DNA of 64,000 bases. It comes from Argopecten irradians (taxonomy: Eukaryota > Mollusca > Bivalvia > Pectinida > Pectinidae). The notes beneath the pieces are model-generated. The model was not told the origin of the DNA. It ran no database searches and worked only from the letters and a program-made list of their open reading frames with translations. Made by a program: the position numbers and the translations under genes. Positions 8,931-64,000 of the stretch are shown here, piece after piece; the stretch's first letter is position 1, and the number at the start of each line of letters is the position of its first letter. The stretch covers positions 33,188,909-33,252,908 of the forward strand of contig NC_091147.1 in NCBI RefSeq assembly GCF_041381155.1. Direction: 5' to 3'.

Positions 8931-9988
8931 GATTAACCAGATTACTTAGGTTAATGAAATAAGTATCAACATTTATGTAAAATAATGATTAACCAGATTA
9001 CTTAGGTTAATGAAATAAGTATCAACATTTATGTAAAATAATGATTAACCAGATTACTTAGGTTAATGAAATAAGTATCAACATTTATGTAAAATAATGA
9101 TTAACCAGATTACTTAGGTTAATAAAATAAGTATCAACATTTATGTAAGATAATGATTAACCAGATTACTTAGGTTAATAAAATAAAAATCAACATTTTT
9201 TGTAAAATAATGATTAACCAGATTACTTAGGTCAATGAAATAAGTTATCAACATTTTATGTAAAATAATGATTAACCAGATTACTTAGGTTAATAAAATA
9301 AGTATCAACATTTTTGTAAAATAATGATTAACCAGATTACTTAGGTCAATGAAATAAGTATCAACATTTATGTAAAATAATGATTAACCAGATTACTTAG
9401 GTCAATGAAATAAGTATCAACATTTATGTAAAATAATGATTAACCAGATTACTTAGGTTAATAAAATAAGTATCAACATTTATGTAAAATAATAATTAAC
9501 CAGATTACTTAGGTTAATAAAATAAGTATCAACATTTATGTAAAATAATGATTAACCAGATTACTTAGGTTAATAAAATAAGTATCAACATTTATGTAAA
9601 ATAATGATTAACCAGATTACTTAGGTTAATAAAATAAGTATCAACATTTATGTAAAATAATGATTAACCAGATTACTTAGGTTAATGAAATAAGTATCAA
9701 CATTTATGTAAAATAATGATTAACCAGATTACTTAGGTTAATGAAATAAGTATCAACATTTTTGTAAAATAATGATTAACCAGATTACTTAGGTTAATAA
9801 AATAAGTATCAACATTTATGTAAAATAATGATTAACCAGATTACTTAGGTTAATGAAATAAGTATCAACATTTATGTAAAATAATGATTAACCAGATTAC
9901 TTAGGTTAATAAAATAAGTATCAACATTTATGTAAAATAATGATTAACCAGATTACTTAGGTTAATAAAATAAGTATCAACATTTATT
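8931..9988. repeat. 56-bp satellite, right block
   Basis: About 19 copies of the same 56-bp unit as at 2246, beginning directly at the right edge of the DIRS-like element. Copies are highly similar. They vary mainly at AATGAAAT versus AATAAAAT and at GGTTAAT versus GGTCAAT. The array ends sharply at about 9988 in unique sequence. Confidence 0.95.
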
Positions 9989-11693: not shown

Positions 11694-14600
11694 TCATAGT
11701 TTTATGTCAGGGTTAGACACTTCTTCAAGTTTTGATGTCGGTATCCTGAATGCATGCACGTTGAATGTCTCTGAGAAATCATATGCCCCTTTGCTTTTAT
11801 AAAATTCCTGTGCACTGGTGTTCCAATTGTGAACAAGCTGCTCCATGTATGAACAGCCACTTGCTACGACATCCTGAAGAAAAAATAATGACATATTTTA
11901 ATAGAATATGTGATGAAAAGAAATTGTGTGATATATGTTAAAAAATAGATTTAAATGAACTGGTTGATATGGACACCTTGCATTAGTACTATGCTCTGTA
12001 CTTAATGCATATGTTTACTTTTGTCGTATACAAAAATAAATCAAATGATTTTTTTTTCGATTAATCATGTGATTGTATGTGTGATTTTACTTTTAGATAA
12101 TCAGCTGATTTATTTCTTTCTTTTTCATTTTAAACTTATTAATAGCGGTTTATGGGGGTTTGAAAGTCCTTCTCCGGTCGAAAACGATGTTAGAAAATAA
12201 AAGTCTTGAAACTTGCTGCTGCGAGAAGAGGATTTTTGGTTAACGAGTTAATATGAAATGTTGACTACAGCTTGGTGTAGATACCTGTAGCTAACTGTTA
12301 TGGTTTATCTATTATTTTATATCTCAATTAGGGCAAAACATTTAGTCATTGGGATTGTGTTATTCCGTCTTTGCATATTACAGAGTTAGCTCCCTTGTGG
12401 GTAGGTATCGATTGTTACGTCATTATTTTGTGAGCGCAATTTACGTCGTTTTCTACAAAAAGTGTGACATTACGCTCGCAAAGACATGACGTCACAATCA
12501 ATACCTACCCGCAAGGGCAGATAACTCTGTAATATGCAAATACAGAATAAATGTATTGGTTTGTCTCCGAAAATTTATTTCCTTGGCACCCAGTCTATAA
12601 TGATTTTCATTCCATGTGAGATACAAACCTACTGCAGCCTCCAAAACAAAAAAACTGTACTTGTCATCTCACTTTCACAGACGGGGGATATTATAGTTGT
12701 TCAAAAAATAAGAAAGTAAAAATGTTTTCCTCGCCTTTGCCACTGTTGTATATAGAGCCGATCCTATGCCTTTGTTTCTGTGTTCTGGGACCACGTACAT
12801 ACTATCGAGGATAGCTACTTTTCCCTCCCATCCATCAAATCTATACACATACAGAGCAAAGCCTAGCAATGGCTTGGAGCTGGAACCTATAAAACAAGAG
12901 ATGTGAATGGCAAGATTACCTGAATGTGGTACATTCAAAGAAAACAAATATAAATGAAACGAAACATTTCTTTCACAATTGCAAACCGTGAACATTAATA
13001 AGATAAATGAAATTATGATGAACAAAATGTTACAAATTCCACATCAAAGTGTAAAAATTCCTCAATGGTTTAATGTAAATAATGAACGTGAAAGAGTGTT
13101 GACTTTTTACGGATCATATACCAATTAAATTGTAAAAGAGAACTTGTCAGCTTCCTAATTTGTTCGCCTTTGCCAACACCTTGTATACGTATAGTTACTT
13201 GCTGGACACATTCCAGTGTATAACCAATCTCATCTGATTGGTCGCCATGTTTCTGCTGTTGTGTTTGATTATTTTTGATAAGAAAGAAATTTACTCATAA
13301 CTAACCATCCGTGACCTTGCCTTCTGCTACGACACACTTGTACGACATCTGGTTTTCTTTGAGCACTGTGTCGAATATAAAAAAATGCAGAGATTCAACA
13401 TGTAAGCGACACAAATATATGCAGGTTTTATATATAATTAAAAATAATAAATATAATGCAAAGATGTATAAACGTACGTCCCAAAGCAATTTAATTATAA
13501 ATAACTTCAACGGCTGATACATTTTTTCATGTTACTCCGCATGTACAAGATCGAGATAGCAGAAATGTCTTACATTCAGGCGTGACGGTTATAGTGTTTT
13601 TCTCGCCAAGGTGTTCCGCAAGTTCCTAAAACATTAAATAATATGAATGACTTAATTTATTTATATTATTATATAAGTATATGCCCTATTGTGGTACATT
13701 TTCGGGGAGAAAAGATGGTTTTAAAAAAAATCTGAACGTGATTATTTATGTTGCATACAAGTTCATGATAACTTACTTTATTATAAAACTATCGACTTTT
13801 GTACCGGTGACTATGATGTGATATGAACTAGAAAACAATATATTGACCGAGGTGGAGTTCATGCTGTCTAACACGATTTACTGACACGCTATACTCTTTT
13901 TTGAAGTGTACATAACGCATCATAAACCAATCATACATGCAAAAGTTTGTAAGGCTGCAAAATCTATATTTGTTGGTATTCTTATACTATTGCTGATGTT
14001 ATGTCATTAAGTACACATACTTTGAAACCTGAAAATCATGCGTACAAATACCAAATATATAAGTAAGTCGTTTCAACTACAGTACTGGTATTTTAGTTAG
14101 AATTTTTACCATACTTGCCGTTCCATTACTATTGTAAGTACTGTGAATAACAATATAGAATCCCAAACTGCAGAAAATTAAACTAACAATGTTTCTTTAT
14201 ACAGATACCAAACATCAATTTAGCTGAAAAGTGTGTTGAAATAATTTGAAAACATCATTCTAGGCGATCAATAAAATACGCGATATATATCCGAAATAAA
14301 AAAAAAGAGAAAAAACATCTGTTTGGCTCTTTCAGATGCCAACACACTAAAATTCAAGCTGTAGCCGAAATGGACAAAGCACAAAATAAACAAATTTTAT
14401 TTCACGCATTGTACAATATTTTGTGCACAATGGAAATGAACTCATTGTCGCAAGATCAGTCAATCGGTATTGTTATTATATGTGTTGATAAGCTTTTCAC
14501 GCATGACTAGTTCACTGTAACAGATGGCTTGGATATTAAGATTACTTCATTCAAAGTTTACATTTCCATTGTATCCGACTGCGCTCTTTTGCTTGGCAAC

Positions 14601-43428: not shown

Positions 43429-45179
43429 CTAGTGTATGTTAAAAGGACGACAAGCTATTTTGTGGGCTTTTATACCTAGTGTATGTTATAAGGACGACAA
43501 GCCATTTTGTGCGCTTTTATACCTAGTGTATGTTATAAGGACGACAAGCCATTTTGTGCGCTTTTATACCTAGTGTATGTTATAAGGACGACAAGCCATT
43601 TTGTGGGCTTTTATACCAAGTGAATGTTAAGGACGACAAGCTATTTTGTGGGCTTTTATACCTAGTGTATGTTATAAGGACGACAAGCCATTTTGTGCGC
43701 TTTTATACCTAGTGTATGTTATAAGGACGACAAGCCATTTTGTGCGCTTTTATACCAAGTGAATGTTAAGGACGACAAGCTATTTTGTGCGCTTTTATAC
43801 CTAGTGTATGTTATAAGGACGACAAGCCATTTTGTGGCGCTTTTATACCTAGTGTATGTTATAAGGACGACAAGCCATTTTGTGCGCTTTTATACCTAGT
43901 GAATGTTAAGGACGACAAGCTATTTTGTGGGCTTTTATACCTAGTGTATGTTATAAGGACGACAAGCCATTTTGTGCGCTTTTATACCTAGTGTATGTTA
44001 TAAGGACGACAAGCCATTTTGTGGGCTTTTATACCTAGTGTATGTTATAAGGACGACAAGCCATTTTGTGGCTTTTATACCTAGTGTATGTTATAAGGAC
44101 GACAAGCATTTTGTGGCTTTTTACCTAGTGTATGTTATAAGGACGACAAGCATTTGTGGCTTTTATACCTAGTGTATGTTATAAGGACGACAAGCCATTT
44201 TGTGCGCTTTTATACCTAGTGTATGTTATAAGGACGACAAGCCATTTTGTGCGCTTTTATACCTAGTGTATGTTATAAGGACGACAAGCCATTTGTGGCT
44301 TTTATACCTAGTGTATGTTATAAGGACGACAAGCCATTTTGTGGCTTTTATACCTAGTGTATGTATAAGGACGACAAGCATTTTGTGGGCTTTTATACCT
44401 AGTGTATGTTATAAGGACGACAAGCCATTTTGTGGCTTTTATACCTAGTTATGTTATAAGGACGACAAGCCATTTTGTGGGCTTTTATACCTAGTGTATG
44501 TTATAAGGACGACAAGCCATTTTGTGCGCTTTTTATACCTAGTGTATGTTATAAGGACGACAAGCCATTTTGTGCGCTTTTATACCTAGTGTATGTTATA
44601 AGGACGACAAGCCATTTTGTGCGCTTTTATACCTAGTGTATGTTATAAGGACGACAAGCCATTTTGTGCGCTTTTATACCTAGTGTATGTTATAAGGACG
44701 ACAAGCCATTTTGTGCGCTTTTATACCTAGTGTATGTTATAAGGACGACAAGCCATTTTGTGCGCTTTTATACCTAGTGTATGTTATAAGGACGACAAGC
44801 CATTTTGTGCGCTTTTATACCAAGTGAATGTTAAGGACGACAAGCCATTTTGTGGGCTTTTATACCATACCAGTGTATGTTAAAAGGACGACAAAGCCAT
44901 TTTGTGCGCTTTTATACCTAGTGTATGTTATAAGGACGACAAGCCATTTTGTGCGCTTTTATACCTAGTGTATGTTATAAGGACGACAAGCCATTTTGTG
45001 CTTTTATACCTAGTGTATGTTATAAGGACGACAAGCCATTTTGTGCGCTTTTATACCTAGTGTATGTTATAAGGACGACAAGCCATTTTGTGCGCTTTTA
45101 TACCTAGTGTATGTTATAAGGACGACAAGCCATTTTGTGCGCTTTTATACCTAGTGTATGTTATAAGGACGACAAGCCA
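43429..45179. repeat. 47-bp satellite
   Basis: About 37 copies of a 47-bp unit containing CCTAGTGTATGTTATAAGGA, CGACAAGCCATTTTGTG and CGCTTTTATA. Variants have GTGGGC or GTGGC for GTGCGC, or lack the TATA of GTTATAAGG. Because 47 is not a multiple of three, open frames across it are short artefacts. Confidence 0.96.
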
Positions 45180-45915: not shown

Positions 45916-47195
45916 AACAAGAGGCCCAGAGGGCCTGTATCGCTCACCTGGTTTGTAATGCCAAGTAATGTTCTGAATACAGGTTCATTGTTTCTTTTCT
46001 GAAGGAATTTTAATATCAACCTCTAAATCCCCTATTGGGCCCCACCCCTCCCGCCCCCAGGGGGTCAGAGCCAAAATTTATACAAGTTCTGTTCCCCTTC
46101 TTCCAAGGATGTTTATGGCCAAATTTGGTCACAATCCAAACAAAACTCTAGGACAAGAAGTGATTTATAGGATTTACCTCTATTTCCCCTATTGGGCCCC
46201 ACCCGTCCTGCCCTCGGGGGCCAGAGTCAAAATTTATACGAGTTCTGTTCCCCTTCCCCCAAGGATGTCTGTGGCCAAATTTGGTTACATTCCATTCAGA
46301 ACTCTATGACTAGTAGCGATTTAAAGGATTTACCTCTATTACCCCTATTGGGCCCCGCCCCTCCTGCCCCCGGGGGACCAGAGCCAAAATTTATACAAGT
46401 TCTGTTCCCCTTCCCCAAAGGATGTTTGTGGCCAAATTTGGTTACATTCCATTCAGAACTCTATGACAAGTAGTGATTTAAAGGATTTACCTCTATTTCC
46501 CCTATTGGGCCCCGCCCCTCCTGCCCCTGGGGGATCAGAGCCAAAATTTATACAAGTTCTGTTCCCCTTCCCCCAAGGATTTTGTGGCCAAATTTGGTTA
46601 CAATTCATGTAGAGCTCTAGGACAAGTAGAGATTTAAAGGATTAACCTCTATTTCCCCTATTGGGCCCCGCCCCTCCTGCCCCCAGGGGGTCAGAGCCAA
46701 AATTTATACAAGTTCTGTTCCCCTTCCCCCAAGGATGTTTGTGGCCAAATTTGGTTACATTCCATTCAGAACTCTATGACTAGTAGCGATTTAAAGGATT
46801 TACCTCTATTACCCCTATTGGGCCCCGCCCCTCCTGCCCCTGGGGGACCAGAGCCAAAATTTATACAAGTTCTGTTCCCCCTCCCCCAAGGATGTTTGTG
46901 GTCAAATTTGGTTACAATCCATGCAGAACTCTAGGACAAGTAGCGATTTATAGGATTTACCTCTATTTCCCCTATTGGGCCCCGCCCCTCCTGCCCCCGG
47001 GGGGACAGAGCCAAAATTTATACAAGTTCTGTTTCCCCTCCCCCAAGGATGTTTGTGGCCAAATTTGGTTACAATCCATGCAGAACTCTATGACTAGTAG
47101 CGATTTAAAGGAAATGTTGACGGACGGACGGAAGGACGACTGACGCCGCGCCATGACATAAGCTCACCGGCCCTTCGGGCCAGGTAAGCTAAAAA
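45916..47195 (+). mobile_element. hairpin-bounded repeat element, lineage 2, with seven 157-bp units
   Basis: The head is AACAAGAGGCCCAGAGGGCC followed by TCGCTCACCTGG. Seven tandem units of 156-157 bp follow (ATTGGGCCCC at 46034, 46191, 46347, 46504, 46660, 46817 and 46974). Next is a GGACGGACGG tract (47111-47140), then a tail that folds as AGCTCACCGGCCC-TTC-GGGCCAGGTAAGCT and ends in an A run. It is non-coding; open frames inside it only reflect the near-multiple-of-three period. Confidence 0.88.
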
Positions 47196-49287: not shown

Positions 49288-49446
49288 CTTACAGAGTTAG
49301 CTCCCTTGTAGTTGGGTATTGATTGCTATGTCATTATTCATGTATTTTTCTCCAAAAAGTATGACATAATGCTCGCAAACACATGACGTCACAATCAATA
49401 CCTACCCGCAAGGGCAGATTACTACAACTTCAAATACAGAATTGGT
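49288..49446. mobile_element. palindromic MITE, unexpanded copy B
   Basis: The left arm (TTACAGAGTTAGCTCCCTTG) and right arm (ATGACGTCACAATCAATACC then CTACCCGCAAGGGCAGAT) are the same as in the element at 12355. The centre shares ATGCTCGCAAACACATGACG with the expanded copy at 55948. Confidence 0.85.
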
Positions 49447-55704: not shown

Positions 55705-58700
55705 TCAGTGAATATCTCGGAACGCATCGTCGGAGAGAAGTAACTGGAATAAGTTTGGTTTGTCCACGTCTGCTTCGTCCATCTCTCTCACTGTTACACA
55801 GTAGCAGCGTAAGGCCTGCATCAACTGCCCCACATTCCAGCCACGCTTCCGTATTGAGTCTATCACTTCTTGTAACTGAAAATAGAGACGTCAGAGATGG
55901 TGAATATTTTAAATAGAAGATATCTTTTCTATTACCATGTTCTGTCTTTGGATATAACAGAGTTACCTCCCCTGCGGATAGGTATCCATTGTGACATCGT
56001 TATTTTGTAAGTGAAATTTGTATTGTTTTCTCTGAAAGGTGTGACCTTGTGCTCGCAAACACATGACCTCACAATCAATACCTACCCACATGGACAGTAA
56101 TATGACGTCACAATCTATACCTACCCACATGGACAGTAATATGACATCACAATCTATACCTACCCACATGGACAGTAATATGACATCACAATCAATACCT
56201 ACCCACATGGACAGTAATATGACATCACAATCAATACCTACCCACATGGACAGTAATATGACATCACAATCTATACCTACCCACATGGACAGTAATATGA
56301 CATCACAATCTATACCTACCCACATGGACAGTAATATGACATCACAATACCTACCCACATGGACAGTAATATGACATCACAATCTATACCTACCCACATG
56401 GACAGTAATATGACATCACAATACCTACCCACATGGACAGTAATATGACATCATAATCTATAATTACCCACATGGACAGTAATATGACGTCACAATCTAT
56501 ACCTACCCACATGGGCAGTAATATGACATCACAATACCTACCCACATGGACAGTAATATGACATCACAATCTATACCTACCCACATGGACAGTAATATGA
56601 CATCACATTCTATACCTACCCACATGGACAGTAATATGACATCACAATCTATACCTACCCACATGGACAGTAATATGACATCACAATCTATACCTACCCA
56701 CATGGACAGTAATATGACATCACAATCTATACCTACCCACATTAACAGTAATATGACATCACAATCTATACCTACCCACATGGACAGTAATATGACATCA
56801 CAATCTATACCTACCCACATGGACAGTAATATGACATCACAATCTATACCTACCCACATGGACAGTAATATGACATCACAATCTATACCTACCCACATGG
56901 ACAGTAATATGACATCACAATCTATACCTACCCACATGGACAGTAATATGACGTCACAATCCATACCTACCCACATGGACAGTAATATGACGTCACAATT
57001 TATACCTACCCACATGGACAGTAATATGACGTCACAATCTATACCTACCCACATGGACAGTAATATGACATCACAATCTATACCTACCCACATGGACAGT
57101 AATATGACATCACAATCTATACCTACCCACATGGACAGTAATATGACATCACAATCAATACCTACCCACATGGACAGTAATATGACATCACAATCACCAT
57201 ATACCTACCCACATGGACAGTAATATATGACATCACAATCACAATCAATACCTACCCACATGGACAGTAATATGATGTCACAATCAATATCTACCCACAT
57301 GGACAGTAATATGACATCACAATCTATACCTACCCACATGGACAGTAATATGACATCACAAATCAATATACTACCCACATGGATAGTAATATGACGTCAC
57401 AATCTATACCTACCCACATGGGCAGTAATATGACATCACAATACTACCCACATGGCAGTATATGACATCACACATGACAGTAATATGACATCACAATCTA
57501 TACCTACCCACATGGACAGTAATATGACATCACAATCTATACCTACCCACATGGACAGTAATATGACATCACAATCTATACCTACCCACATGGACAGTAA
57601 TATGACATCACAATCTATACCTACCCACATGGACAGTAATATGACATCACAATCTATACCTACCCACATGGACAGTAATATGACATCACAATACCTACCC
57701 ACATGGACAGTAATATGACATCACAATCTATACCTACCCACATGACAGTAATATGACATCACAATCTATACCTACCCACATGGACAGTAATATGACGTCA
57801 CAATTTATACCTACCCACATGGACAGTAATATGACATCACAATCTATACCTACCCACATGGACAGTAATATGACATCACAATCTATACCTACCCACATGG
57901 ACAGTAATATGACATCACAATCTATACCTACCCACATGGACAGTAATATGACGTCACAATTTATACCTACCGACATGGACAGTAATATGACGTCACAATC
58001 CATACCTACCCACATGGACAGTAATATGACGTCACAATTTATACCTACCCACATGGACAGTAATATGACGTCACAATCTATACCTACCCACATGGACAGT
58101 AATATGACATCACAATCTATACCTACCCACATGGACAGTAATATGACATCACAATCAATACCTACCCACATGGACAGTAATATGATGTCACAATCAATAC
58201 CTACCCACATGGACAGTAATATGACATCACAATCTATACCTACCCACATGGACAGTAATATGACATCACAATCAATAACTACCCACATGGATAGTAATAT
58301 GACATCACAATCTATACCTACCCACATGGACAGTAATATGACATCACAATACCTACCCACATGGACAGTAATATGACATCACAATCTATACCTACCCACA
58401 TTAACAGTAATATGACATCACAATCTATACCTACCCACATGGACAGTAATATGACATCACAATCTATACCTACCCACATGGACAGTAATATGACATCACA
58501 ATCTATACCTACCCACATGGACAGTAATATGACATCACAATACCTACCCACATGGACAGTAATATGACATCACAATCTATACCTACCCACATTAACAGTA
58601 ATATGACATCACAATCTATACCTACCCACATGGACAGTAATATGACGTCACAATTTATACCTACCCACATGGACAGTAATATGACATCACAATCTATACC

Positions 58701-60600
58701 TACCCACATGGACAGTAATATGACATCACAACTGATCACAATCTACCCTACCACATGGACAGTAATATGACATCACAATCTATACCTACCCACATGGACA
58801 GTAATATGACGTACACAATTTATACCTACCGACATGGACAGTAATATGACGTCACAATCCATACCTACCCACATGGACAGTAATATGACGTCACAATTTA
58901 TACCTACCCACATGGACAGTAATATGACGTCACAATCTATACCTACCCACATGGACAGTAATATGACATCCACAATCTCCAATCTATACCTACCCACATG
59001 GACAGTAATATGACATCACAATCAATACCTACCCACATGGACAGTAATATGACATCACAATCTATACCTACCCACATGGACAGTAATATGACATCACAAT
59101 CAATACCTACCCACATGGACAGTAATATGATGTCACAATCAATACCTACCCACATGGACAGTAATATGACATCACAATCTATACCTACCCACATGGACAG
59201 TAATATGACATCACAATCAATAACTACCCACATGGATAGTAATATGACATTACAATACCTACCCACATGGACAGTAATATGACATCACAATCTATACCTA
59301 CCCACATGGACAGTAATATGACATCACAATCTATACCTACCCACATGAACAGTAATATGCAAATACATTACAATGATTTTTTTAATGGGGATAACTTTTT
59401 AGTGATTTCTCAGAAAATTGCTATAATCGCAAAAAAAATTGTGATTCATGAAATATATACAGAAAAACATTTTAAACACATTTCTACAACAATAGGCAGT
59501 GTTATTCAACTCTCACAGTATTAAATTAACAGTGCAGCTGTTGATTAACAATTTGTTTATACCACACATGGTTCTTCGCATTCTGATTGACTGACACAGT
59601 GAACTTTGACTGAACTACTTATATCTCAGTGTCACGTTGTCAAAAATCAAATGACATCATTCTATGTTGTGATCGCCGCTTGATGTCCAAAACTGCTGTT
59701 GGAAAGCGTATGCGTCATGGTTGTTGTGTCAAAATACGTGAGATTTTCATACATGTTAAATTGACCATAAGTACTAATAATATTGACAGACAAGAATTTC
59801 ACTAATGAGTCTGGTAGATTTAACGTGTATGAAACGAACTTGGTGATCTAGATGGTAACGGCTTGATGATTATCTGGCGGGAAATAGACGATGCTGTGTC
59901 GTGCGAATGCTTTTACATGTATCCATGTAGTCCAACACTTAATTTTATTTTCTGGAAGCAACTACCAGTTTGATGATTTGAACTCAATAAGACGTTAAAT
60001 GAGCATTGTTTAACCCTAAAGATGTTCCGAACGAGAAGAATTTGATATCGACGGACTTTTGAAAACTAATTAGTGTCTTTTTGCTGATGAAAATATTTCT
60101 ACACCTTATTGGCATATTTCAATAAACACACGTTACCGTCTCCCCGCTGTATTTCTATCGGCTAAAAAAAATATGATTGTGGTAAAAACAGGTCACACTA
60201 CTCGTGGTTGTTGAATACAAAAGACACTTGCTAAAGCTTGTGTCTTTAGAAACTTTTAAAATAACTCACTCGTGTGGGTTAAATTCACTCATTGTGTAAC
60301 TATATATTGACTATTCACCTCTGACATTTTATGATGAACTGTTCCAGTCTTTGAAATGTATCTACAGGGAGTGAATGAGTTGGATAAAAATTCCTCAATA
60401 GTTTGGAAGTTTAAGACAAACAATGCACGACAAATAAAACTTACCTGATCGAGGTCAGGGTGTTGGAAGGTATAGTAGAATACATATGGTACGCCTGCAT
60501 AAGACGCAGCCATCCATTGCAGCATTGATTTAAGGTGAGGATCGCCGCGGAACGCACCACACCCCCAGTTCCCAGTCGATATTGGTCGGCCATAAACCCT
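55705..60600 (-). CDS. PARG: poly(ADP-ribose) glycohydrolase, last two coding exons (partial)
   Basis: An enzyme that cleaves ribose-ribose bonds in poly(ADP-ribose) and so reverses PARP signalling. The minus-strand exon 60600-60445 (52 codons, phase 0 at both ends) encodes RVYGRPISTGNWGCGAFRGD and LKSMLQWMAAS, the conserved block near the C-terminus of the PARG catalytic domain. The last exon 55875-55705 encodes LQEVIDSIRKRGWNVGQLMQ and ends DDAFRDIH before TGA, as in the short C-terminal helix region of the family. Splice sites are GT-AG. Upstream exons, including the catalytic Gly-Gly-Gly and QEE motifs, are not in this window and should lie beyond 64000. The intron of about 4.6 kb between the two exons contains the expanded 39-bp satellite. 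Confidence 0.9.
55948..59375. mobile_element. palindromic MITE expanded into a 39-bp satellite (PARG intron)
   Basis: The left part (55948-56075) is the left arm and centre of the MITE seen at 12355 and 49288: CAGAGTTACCTCCCCTG, then GCTCGCAAACACATGAC. Where the single right arm should follow, its sequence is repeated about 85 times. The last unit ends AGTAATATGCAAATACA, matching the outer end of the normal right arm (TGTAATATGCAAATACA at 12528). Confidence 0.85.
56065..59360. repeat. 39-bp satellite
   Basis: About 85 head-to-tail copies of a 39-bp unit: GACATCACAATCTATACC, TACCCACATGGACAG, TAATAT. Some copies are 35 bp, lacking CTAT. Variants include TGACGTCA or TGATGTCA for TGACATCA, and CAATCAATACC for CAATCTATACC. 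As 39 is a multiple of three, frames stay open on both strands; these are not genes. Confidence 0.97.
59376..60444. other. remainder of the PARG last intron
   Basis: Unique AT-rich intronic sequence; no further exon or element recognised. Confidence 0.5.
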
Positions 60601-62424: not shown

Positions 62425-63090
62425 CTAAAAGTTACTGGTTCTAACTAAAAGTTACTGGTCCTAACTGAAGTTACTGGTCCTAATATATAACTGAAGTTAC
62501 TGGTCTTAACTGAAGTTACTGGTCCTAACTGAAAGTTACTGGTCCTAATATATAACTGAAGTTACTGGTCTTAACTGAAGTTACTGGTCCTAACTGAAGT
62601 TACTGGTCCTAACTGAAGTTACTGGTCCTAACTGAAAGTTACTGGTCCTTACTGAAGTTACTGGTCCTAACTGAAGTTACTGGTCCTAACTGAAGTTACT
62701 GGTCCTAACTGAAGTTACTGGTCCTAACTAAAGTTACTGGTCCTTACTGAAGTTACTGGTCCTAACTGAAAGTTACTGGTCCTAACTGAAGTTACTGGTC
62801 CTAACTGAAAGTTACTGGTCCTTACTGAAGTTACTGGTCCTAACTGAAGTTACTGGTCCTAACTGAAGTTACTGGTCCTAACTGAAGTTACTGGTCTTAA
62901 CTGAAGCTACCGATCCTAACTGAAGTTACTGGTCCTAACTGAAGTTACTGGTCAAAACTGAAAGTTACTGGTCCTAACTGAAGTTACTGGTCCTAACTGA
63001 AGTTACTGGTCCTTACTGAAGTTACTGGTCCTAACTGACGTTACTGGTCCTAACTGAAAGTTACTGGTCCTAACTGAAAGTTACTGGTCT
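62425..63090. repeat. 19-bp tandem repeat
   Basis: About 34 copies of a 19-bp unit ACTGAAGTTACTGGTCCTA, with 20-bp variants carrying AAAG. A longer composite unit containing CTAATATATAACTG occurs twice near 62480 and 62546. Confidence 0.95.
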
Positions 63091-64000
63091 TTAAGTTAAG
63101 TTAATAGTAAAGTTACTAGCATAGTAATATTTAAACTGTTTATATATTTCCTAGTACAGTAATAGTTTAACTATTTATATAATTACTTGCAAAGTAATAG
63201 TTTTACTGTTTATATAATTACTTACAAAGTAATAGTTTTACTGTATATATAATTACTTGCGAAGTAATATTTTTACTGTTTAAATAATTACTTGCAAAGT
63301 AATAGTTTTACTGTTTATATAATTACTTGCAAAGTAATAGTTTAACTGCTTATATAATTACTTGCAAAAGTAATAGTTTTACTGTTTATATAATTACTTG
63401 CAAAGTAATAGTTTTACTGCTTATATAATTACTTGCAAAAGTAATAGTTTTACTGTTTATATAATTACTTGCAAAGTAATAGTTTTACTGTTTATATAAT
63501 TACTTGCAAAGTAATATTTTTACTGCTTATATAATTACTTGCAAAAGTAATAGTTTTACTATTTATATAATTACTAGCAAAGTAATAGTTTTACTGTTTA
63601 TATAATTACTTGCAAAGTTAAAGTTTTACTGTTTATATAATTACTTGCAAAGTAATAGTTTTACTGTTTATATAATTACTTGCAAAGTAATAGTTTTACT
63701 GTTTATATAATTACTTGCAAAGTAATAGTTTTACTGTTTAAATAATTACTTGCAAAGTAATAGTTTTACTGTTTATATAATTACTTGCGAAGTAATATTT
63801 TTACTGTTTATATAATTACTTGCAAAGTAATATTTTTACTGTTTAAATAATTACTTGCAAAGTAATAGTTTTACTGTTTATATAATTACTTGCAAAGTAA
63901 TAGTTTTACTGTTTATATAATTACTTGCAAAGTAATAGTTTTACTGTTTTTATAATTACTTGCAAAGTAATAGTTTTACTGTTTATATAATTACTTGCAA
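63091..64000. repeat. 35-bp tandem repeat, running off the window
   Basis: About 25 copies of a 35-bp unit containing TTTTACTGTTTATATAATTA and CTTGCAAAGTAATAG. The first copies (63091-63180) are diverged, and the rest are nearly uniform. The array continues past the window end. Confidence 0.95.

Follow-up and report, generated by a model that had tools for sequence, protein, structure and literature searches.

In-place duplication of a MITE arm as the probable origin of a single-locus minisatellite in a PARG intron of Argopecten irradians

Introduction

How does a minisatellite begin? The beginnings of tandem repeats are usually erased by later homogenisation. At the locus described here thousands of sister arms of a MITE reveal the unduplicated ancestor of the repeat unit, the breakpoints are legible at single-base resolution, and sister elements show both a two-copy state and states of 13 to 60 copies. 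The principle that the ends of transposable elements (TEs), and their terminal inverted repeats (TIRs), can seed tandem repeats is already established; the array in our window (the whole stretch of Argopecten irradians DNA that was analysed, 64 kb in length) is a well-resolved new case of it.

The array element and its host intron

In what setting does the array lie, and which part of the MITE does it repeat? The features that bear on this question are the following.

55876..60444, minus strand: PARG intron containing the array element, with GT at 60444 and AG before 55875
55940..56062, plus strand: left arm and centre, single copy (consensus 1–123; alignment of the collapsed element)
56063..59356, plus strand: minisatellite array of 85 units, 39-bp unit (TRF, unit parse)
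59357..59370, plus strand: outer tip of the right arm, single (consensus 172–185; alignment)

The exons that flank the intron, one ending at 60445 and the other starting at 55875, are open and in phase across the GT..AG joint. The peptide that they encode when joined matches PARG structures from the PDB (15 distinct sequences, best E 4.9e-12) in alignments that span the joint, and the open reading frame of the upstream exon matches PARG_cat_C of Pfam with E 6.3e-18; the downstream exon alone gave no Pfam match. The array element sits within an intron of this PARG gene, which is on the minus strand.

Within the array, TRF calls a period of 39 bp with 84.1 copies and 90% matches over 56063–59359. 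A motif parse finds 85 unit starts, a count made on the assembly sequence only, and an alternative parse finds 83, one of them double. Sixty-eight of the 84 units that are bounded by a following start in the first parse are 39 bp long and seven are 35 bp long. The unit consensus is ATGACATCACAATCTATACCTACCCACATGGACAGTAAT. The array also carries the motifs TGACGTCA (n=15) and TGACATCA (n=63), which we take to be CRE-like.

When the array is collapsed to unit 0 plus the tail, the element aligns over its full length to the 185-bp consensus of the family, with one 9-bp gap and with 31 of 176 bases differing (17.6%). It begins with TTCTGTCTTTG, where the family begins with TTCYGTC. The 39-bp unit consists of positions 124–171 of the right arm of the consensus minus 9 bp at 159–167, and is identical to the consensus at 30 of the 35 positions from 124 to 158. 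The tip at 59357..59370 is ATGCAAATAC, the normal outer right tip, followed by altered last bases. Taken together, tip, junction and unit locate the duplicated piece exactly. An earlier note had proposed that a MITE arm was expanded to about 85 copies in a PARG intron, and the TRF call, the 85 starts and the alignment to the consensus bear this out. Its description of a single left arm and centre, an iterated right arm and an ending in the outer tip agrees with the alignment of the collapsed element, and the expanded segment can indeed be defined exactly, as consensus 124–171 less 159–167. The coordinates given there, 55948–59375, mark the right locus; the start moves to 55940 and the end to near 59370.

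The TA duplication that is expected at the edges of the element is not visible there. A direct repeat that matches at eight of nine bases does lie at these edges, ATTACCATG (55931–55939) and ATTACAATG (59367–59375). Six matches of this kind, the element's own pair included, occur across 63,991 window positions, and the repeat may reflect chance or a rearranged tip.

The MITE family

What kind of element supplied the arm? The 185-bp consensus of the family is a near-palindrome, close to its own reverse complement. It was built from 30 copies, 29 from elsewhere in the genome and one from the window; these were the best matches to the copy at 12363 and are thus biased to young copies. TA stands on both sides of 25 of the 30 copies scored, a young-biased set in which two loci (L035 and L036) show identical flanks. 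A 48-base pattern from the right arm, allowed three mismatches or fewer, matches the genome 1,326 + 1,322 = 2,648 times, and its control 0 times. The family is thus short, has inverted repeats at both ends and is present in many similar copies, as a MITE should be. At 185 bp it is too short to hold a transposase and is therefore non-autonomous; given the TA target, the transposase that moved it was probably of the Tc1/mariner type. Four short stretches of the MITE had no match in the literature full text that was searched, a body of text outside which most subscription papers and all supplements lie.

Two unexpanded members lie in the window, both found by BLAST of the consensus.

12363..12547, plus strand: complete member, unexpanded, with TA on both sides
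49289..49423, plus strand: older member, unexpanded, 81% by BLAST, with degraded outer tips

The former is 96.8% identical to the consensus, to whose 30 rows it contributes one; the latter has diverged by 17.9%. An unexpanded element of the window folds into a long hairpin at -59.7 kcal/mol (shuffle mean -16.6, z -14.3), and a 195-base piece of the array forms no such hairpin (-1 kcal/mol, z +4.6).

The copy that carries the array is a remote member of the family. Over its single-copy part, non-array matches reach only 82–85% among the 40 scored of 2,208 candidates, and one additional match in this scored set, on the reverse strand, reaches 71%.

A single-locus minisatellite

Does the 39-bp unit occur anywhere else? 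The 33-base junction from unit to unit, searched over 846 Mb with three mismatches or fewer, gave 71 matches, and its reversed control gave 0 over the same 846 Mb. All 71 lie in the window array, as do all 51 genome matches to a tandem right-arm pattern without mismatches. No single arm elsewhere matches the sequence at the end of the array within three mismatches; the sole match (1/1) is the array's own end. At this sensitivity of three mismatches or fewer, the 9-bp deletion appears private to the array copy. Nor did the junction search, at three mismatches or fewer, reveal any place where the window's 39-bp unit stands in an intermediate copy number.

These results bear on three statements of the earlier note. 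A wide occurrence of the 39-bp unit outside any MITE context, which it named as evidence against its reading, was looked for and was not seen, all 71 junction matches lying here. Its term ‘satellite’ has to be given up. Satellite DNA forms long arrays at many loci or in heterochromatic blocks; this array measures 3.3 kb at one intronic locus, and it is therefore a single-locus minisatellite, with no sign of movement. Its units are in register with the arm, its flanks are those of a single TE and its unit is private to the locus, as in a minisatellite born from a TE copy. The earlier note's placing of the donor within the window does not hold either: the copies at 12363–12547 and 49289–49423 are only relatives of the array copy, which stands 17.6% off the consensus and has its private 9-bp deletion.

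Other expanded copies of the family

If one arm of this family could be expanded, have others been? Clear cases were found at five places.

C14:38.5 Mb (L070): 33.0 x 55 bp, 99% matches; unit from consensus 96–147
C6:43.1 Mb (L078): 56.5 + 3.3 x 48 bp (~60); unit from consensus 124–174
C10:28.5 Mb (L072/L077): 16.8 x 37 bp; unit from consensus 132–165
C4:7.65 Mb (L079): 12.7 x 43 bp; unit from consensus 141–182
C1:34.3 Mb (L073): 2 x 65 bp, perfect; left arm and centre

On one flank of the C14 array lie the left arm and centre, on the opposite flank the outer right arm. The array at C6:43.1 Mb is closed by an intact right tip with TA beyond it, and a centre piece is present; no left arm was found at that locus. 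In the C10 element both tips are present, the left arm starting after a TA and the right tip standing before one. The C4 array adjoins a left-arm piece, and no separate outer tip follows its last unit. Shorter events accompany these. A partial duplication on C15 of about 1.6 copies has, by eye, the same ATG junction as the window array; at C6:3.1 Mb (L087) the outer 36 bp are doubled; and C6:40.5 Mb (L071) holds another partial duplication. The family has thus yielded four or more further arrays, whose units differ, besides a perfect two-copy duplication and partial duplications, and these are new here. Two further arrays are probably derived from the family, at C3:21.4 Mb (33 bp x 17.9, match 29/31 bp) and C1:1.34 Mb (33 bp x 8.2, match 32/36 bp), both with poor flanks. 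The intermediate copy numbers that the earlier note had foreseen do exist in the family, mostly in other segments with other breakpoints, and are absent for the 39-bp unit.

How complete is this count? Of the 95 genome matches to one relaxed pattern, 54 belong to the window array and 32 to C14:38.5 Mb; the other nine fall at seven places, four of which were inspected. A further pattern gave seven matches outside the window array at five places, one of which was inspected. For one right-arm pattern, arrays were drawn from the first ~100 of the 242 matches listed. The searches covered some segments only and some match lists were truncated, so that the number of family arrays is a lower bound. 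Two of the patterns are specific for the right arm, and no bias of arrays towards that arm can be claimed.

Several candidates were set aside. At C3:7.0 Mb, C7:4.9 Mb and C5:46.1 Mb the alignment to the MITE extends over only 16, 20 and 20 bp, mostly the search motif. The arrays there are long, with unit lengths of 47, 39 and 41 bp; what they have in common with the MITE is the AAGGGCAGATAACTC region, and they may descend from different MITE families that possess this core. At C12:36.3 Mb (L074) what might be taken for a tandem duplication is a complete element beside an arm piece, and C7:4.0 Mb (L075) holds two element pieces. The match at C5:39.5 Mb (L081) is by eye a diverged ordinary arm, of which BLAST aligns only 14 bp. 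Three matches at C4:8.16 Mb belong to a 50-bp array that by eye has only the searched words in common with the MITE. A separate loose tandem pattern, TACCTACCCN{18,46}TACCTACCC, was abandoned: it gave 1,486 + 1,414 matches against 231 + 223 for its reversed control, and the matches listed belonged to an array of 51-bp units and a 27-bp satellite on C1, neither of them MITE.

Some neighbouring sequences were noted in passing. From C1:11976379 onward there runs a long 27-bp satellite, TACCTACCCTGTATATATGACYTGTCR, by eye not the 185-bp MITE; it accounts for most of the matches listed for the loose tandem pattern. About 150 bases past the 48-bp array at C6:43.14 Mb lies a second array (L078, 3740–4399), made of 18 copies of a dissimilar 36-bp unit. 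The C10 element ends about 90 bases ahead of an exon-like open reading frame with a weak match to Band_7 (E 0.0011, below Pfam's cut-off), and its 37-bp array may also lie in an intron.

Origin and growth of the array

The anatomy of the element, its single-locus state, the blocks within its array, and the arrays and short duplications elsewhere in the family are all directly observed. What history would account for them? We consider it probable, at about 0.8, that the window array arose by tandem duplication of the MITE arm in place, followed by slippage or unequal exchange. Long ago a foldback MITE of 185 bp would have inserted into the PARG intron at a TA target. The inserted copy would then have lost 9 bp and changed at a few bases of the right arm, and we infer that this deletion came before the duplication. 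A segment bounded by ATG, the inner boundary reading ..CAC-ATG-AC.. and the outer ..TAAT-ATG-CAA.., would next have been duplicated in tandem; the likeliest route is through the 3-bp microhomology, whether by slippage of the strand, a template switch or end joining. From two copies the array may have grown to 85 through slippage and unequal exchange, the duplication of multi-unit blocks included. Replication might have stalled at the hairpin arm, a role for which the folding is a correlate only. Similar events, mostly at other breakpoints, would have taken place in other copies of the family.

What do the junctions say? The three sequences compared at the window array (proximal, distal and junction) have exactly ATG in common; elsewhere the microhomology is ATG (C6), TG (C14:38.5 Mb) and AA (C1:34.3 Mb). 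These four junctions were scored with contexts set by hand, and the C10 and C4 arrays, with degenerate edges, were left out. Among breakpoint pairs of the consensus that lie 30–70 bp apart, 16.4% have at least 2 bp in common and 5.3% at least 3 bp, so that each case of microhomology is weak when taken alone.

The growth of the array has left traces of its own. At a lag of 22 units, variants of the unit reappear, with seven matches against a best-lag mean of 3.7 in 5,000 shuffles (p 0.0012), which indicates block duplication. The 39-bp units differ from each other by 4.0% on average and the array copy stands 17.6% off the consensus, a pattern compatible with an array that arose after the insertion; since homogenisation could equally lower the divergence between units, the order in time is not proven. 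Across the family there is a graded series of 2 x 65, 13 x 43, 17 x 37, 33 x 55 and ~60 x 48 bp.

Might the duplication have been inherited? On this alternative a MITE lineage whose right arm was already duplicated at the ATG junction transposed, and the window, C6 and C15 copies then grew independently. The recurrence of the ATG junction at C6, with its 48-bp unit, and at C15, with ~1.6 copies by eye, could reflect such inheritance of an already duplicated element, the 39-bp unit being the 48-bp unit minus 9 bp and the states TAACAATC and CTCTATAATATG being common to C6 and C15. The window unit, however, lacks both of these states. Outside the window the ATG junction, at three mismatches or fewer, has 52 matches, of which 50 are at C6, one at C15 and one at C5; since the last is a diverged ordinary arm by eye, clear junctions remain only at C6 and C15, whereas a mobile duplicated lineage would be expected to leave more copies and the 2,648 right-arm matches run on into the normal outer tip. 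We consider an inherited duplication unlikely. The similarity to the arm might also be secondary, a pre-existing minisatellite having been captured by a MITE or having inserted into one, as proposed for miDNA4. The genome is rich in other arrays (eight in the window, the MITE-arm array included), but here the arm itself forms the units, which keep its register and run on into single arm sequence at both ends, the 39-bp unit is absent elsewhere, and other members have expanded other segments of the same arm. Capture is accordingly the least credible of the readings, and we give it hardly any weight. Inflation of the unit number, or duplication of blocks, by the assembler is very improbable. Similar blocks do recur at the 22-unit lag and the count comes from the assembly alone; yet the blocks carry private variants and changes of length, the flanks are in order, and such an artefact could alter the number of units, not create the junction. 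In-place duplication of the arm is therefore the reading that we prefer. With long reads from populations or related species, the family's loci could serve to measure the birth and growth of minisatellites directly.

Comparison with known systems

How does this locus compare with tandem repeats already traced to TEs? Tetris of Drosophila virilis, with its TIR-220, carries tandem repeats within the TIR in arrays of up to 66 copies (PMC4079207). It is the closest precedent, being likewise a non-autonomous foldback element whose in-TIR repeats have expanded to arrays. TIR-220, as PMC4079207 describes it, has units of ~220 bp on many contigs and is satellite-like, strongest in pericentromeric heterochromatin; by contrast, the Argopecten 39-bp unit is private to its locus and the family's arrays consist of 13 to 85 short units.

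According to two reviews, satellites and minisatellites can derive from TIRs and from MITEs (PMC12628747, PMC9659126). Their Xenopus examples resemble ours in that MITE segments are linked to tandem arrays. In miDNA4, a Tc1/mariner MITE, short direct repeats of 5 bp or more are proposed to drive changes in copy number (PMC12628747, PMC9659126); the source of Xstir is a TIR according to the table of one review and internal sequence according to the other (PMC12628747, PMC9659126). As these reviews present them, Xstir and miDNA4 arrays occur in several or many copies of their elements, and capture is proposed for miDNA4, whereas in the window the arm of one insertion was duplicated in place, on our preferred reading. 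In humans at least 7,276 minisatellites and satellites are TE-derived, and the minisatellites among them are mostly private to a locus, 185 of 5,932 clusters occurring at more than one (PMC3389668). The human cases stress Alu, ERV and L1, as far as that account goes, and the window array comes from the hairpin arm of a DNA transposon.

The model of Haber and Louis (1998), as given in PMC6947457, has slippage duplicate the sequence between direct repeats of 5–10 bp. Our junctions may likewise reflect duplication between short direct repeats, but these are only 2–3 bp long, with the ATG of the window at 3 bp and the other three at 3, 2 and 2 bp. Tandem arrays of the coral CMITE have been attributed to replication slippage (PMC2872659); there, as described, whole elements stand in tandem, and in the window part of one arm. 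Among bivalves the Pearl and CvA MITEs and the HindIII/BIV160 satellites similarly combine small non-autonomous elements with tandem repeats, a likeness drawn from their descriptions (PMC9659126, PMC6947457).

Is the family a hotspot?

Do the arms of this family give rise to arrays more often than other sequence? Counting arrays of at least five copies and a period of at least 10, we found four (1,841 bp) in 92.6 kb around 29 family members, and eight in the 64-kb window, the MITE-arm array included. The family comprises at least 2,648 x 185 bp = 490 kb, taking arms at three mismatches or fewer, in which the flank rate predicts ~21 arrays; we found five clear ones and partial ones, a lower bound. 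This rough comparison, with its small flank sample of four, shows no excess of family arrays over background. It is possible, though we hold it more doubtful than not, that the hairpin arms form a recurrent nursery of minisatellites, in which several independent duplications, with different breakpoints and with at least the ATG junction used more than once, reach graded states of 2 to 85 copies. If that were so, a graded copy series within one genome would expose the founding step directly.

The window itself holds further arrays at 43429–45179, 46019–47112 and 62428–64000, with units of 47 bp, 157 bp, 19/96 bp and 35 bp, and the MITE consensus did not match the arrays at these three places at E 0.001. 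Two others, at 2245–2753 and 8931–9987, lie ~6 kb apart and have a near-identical 56-bp unit in another phase.
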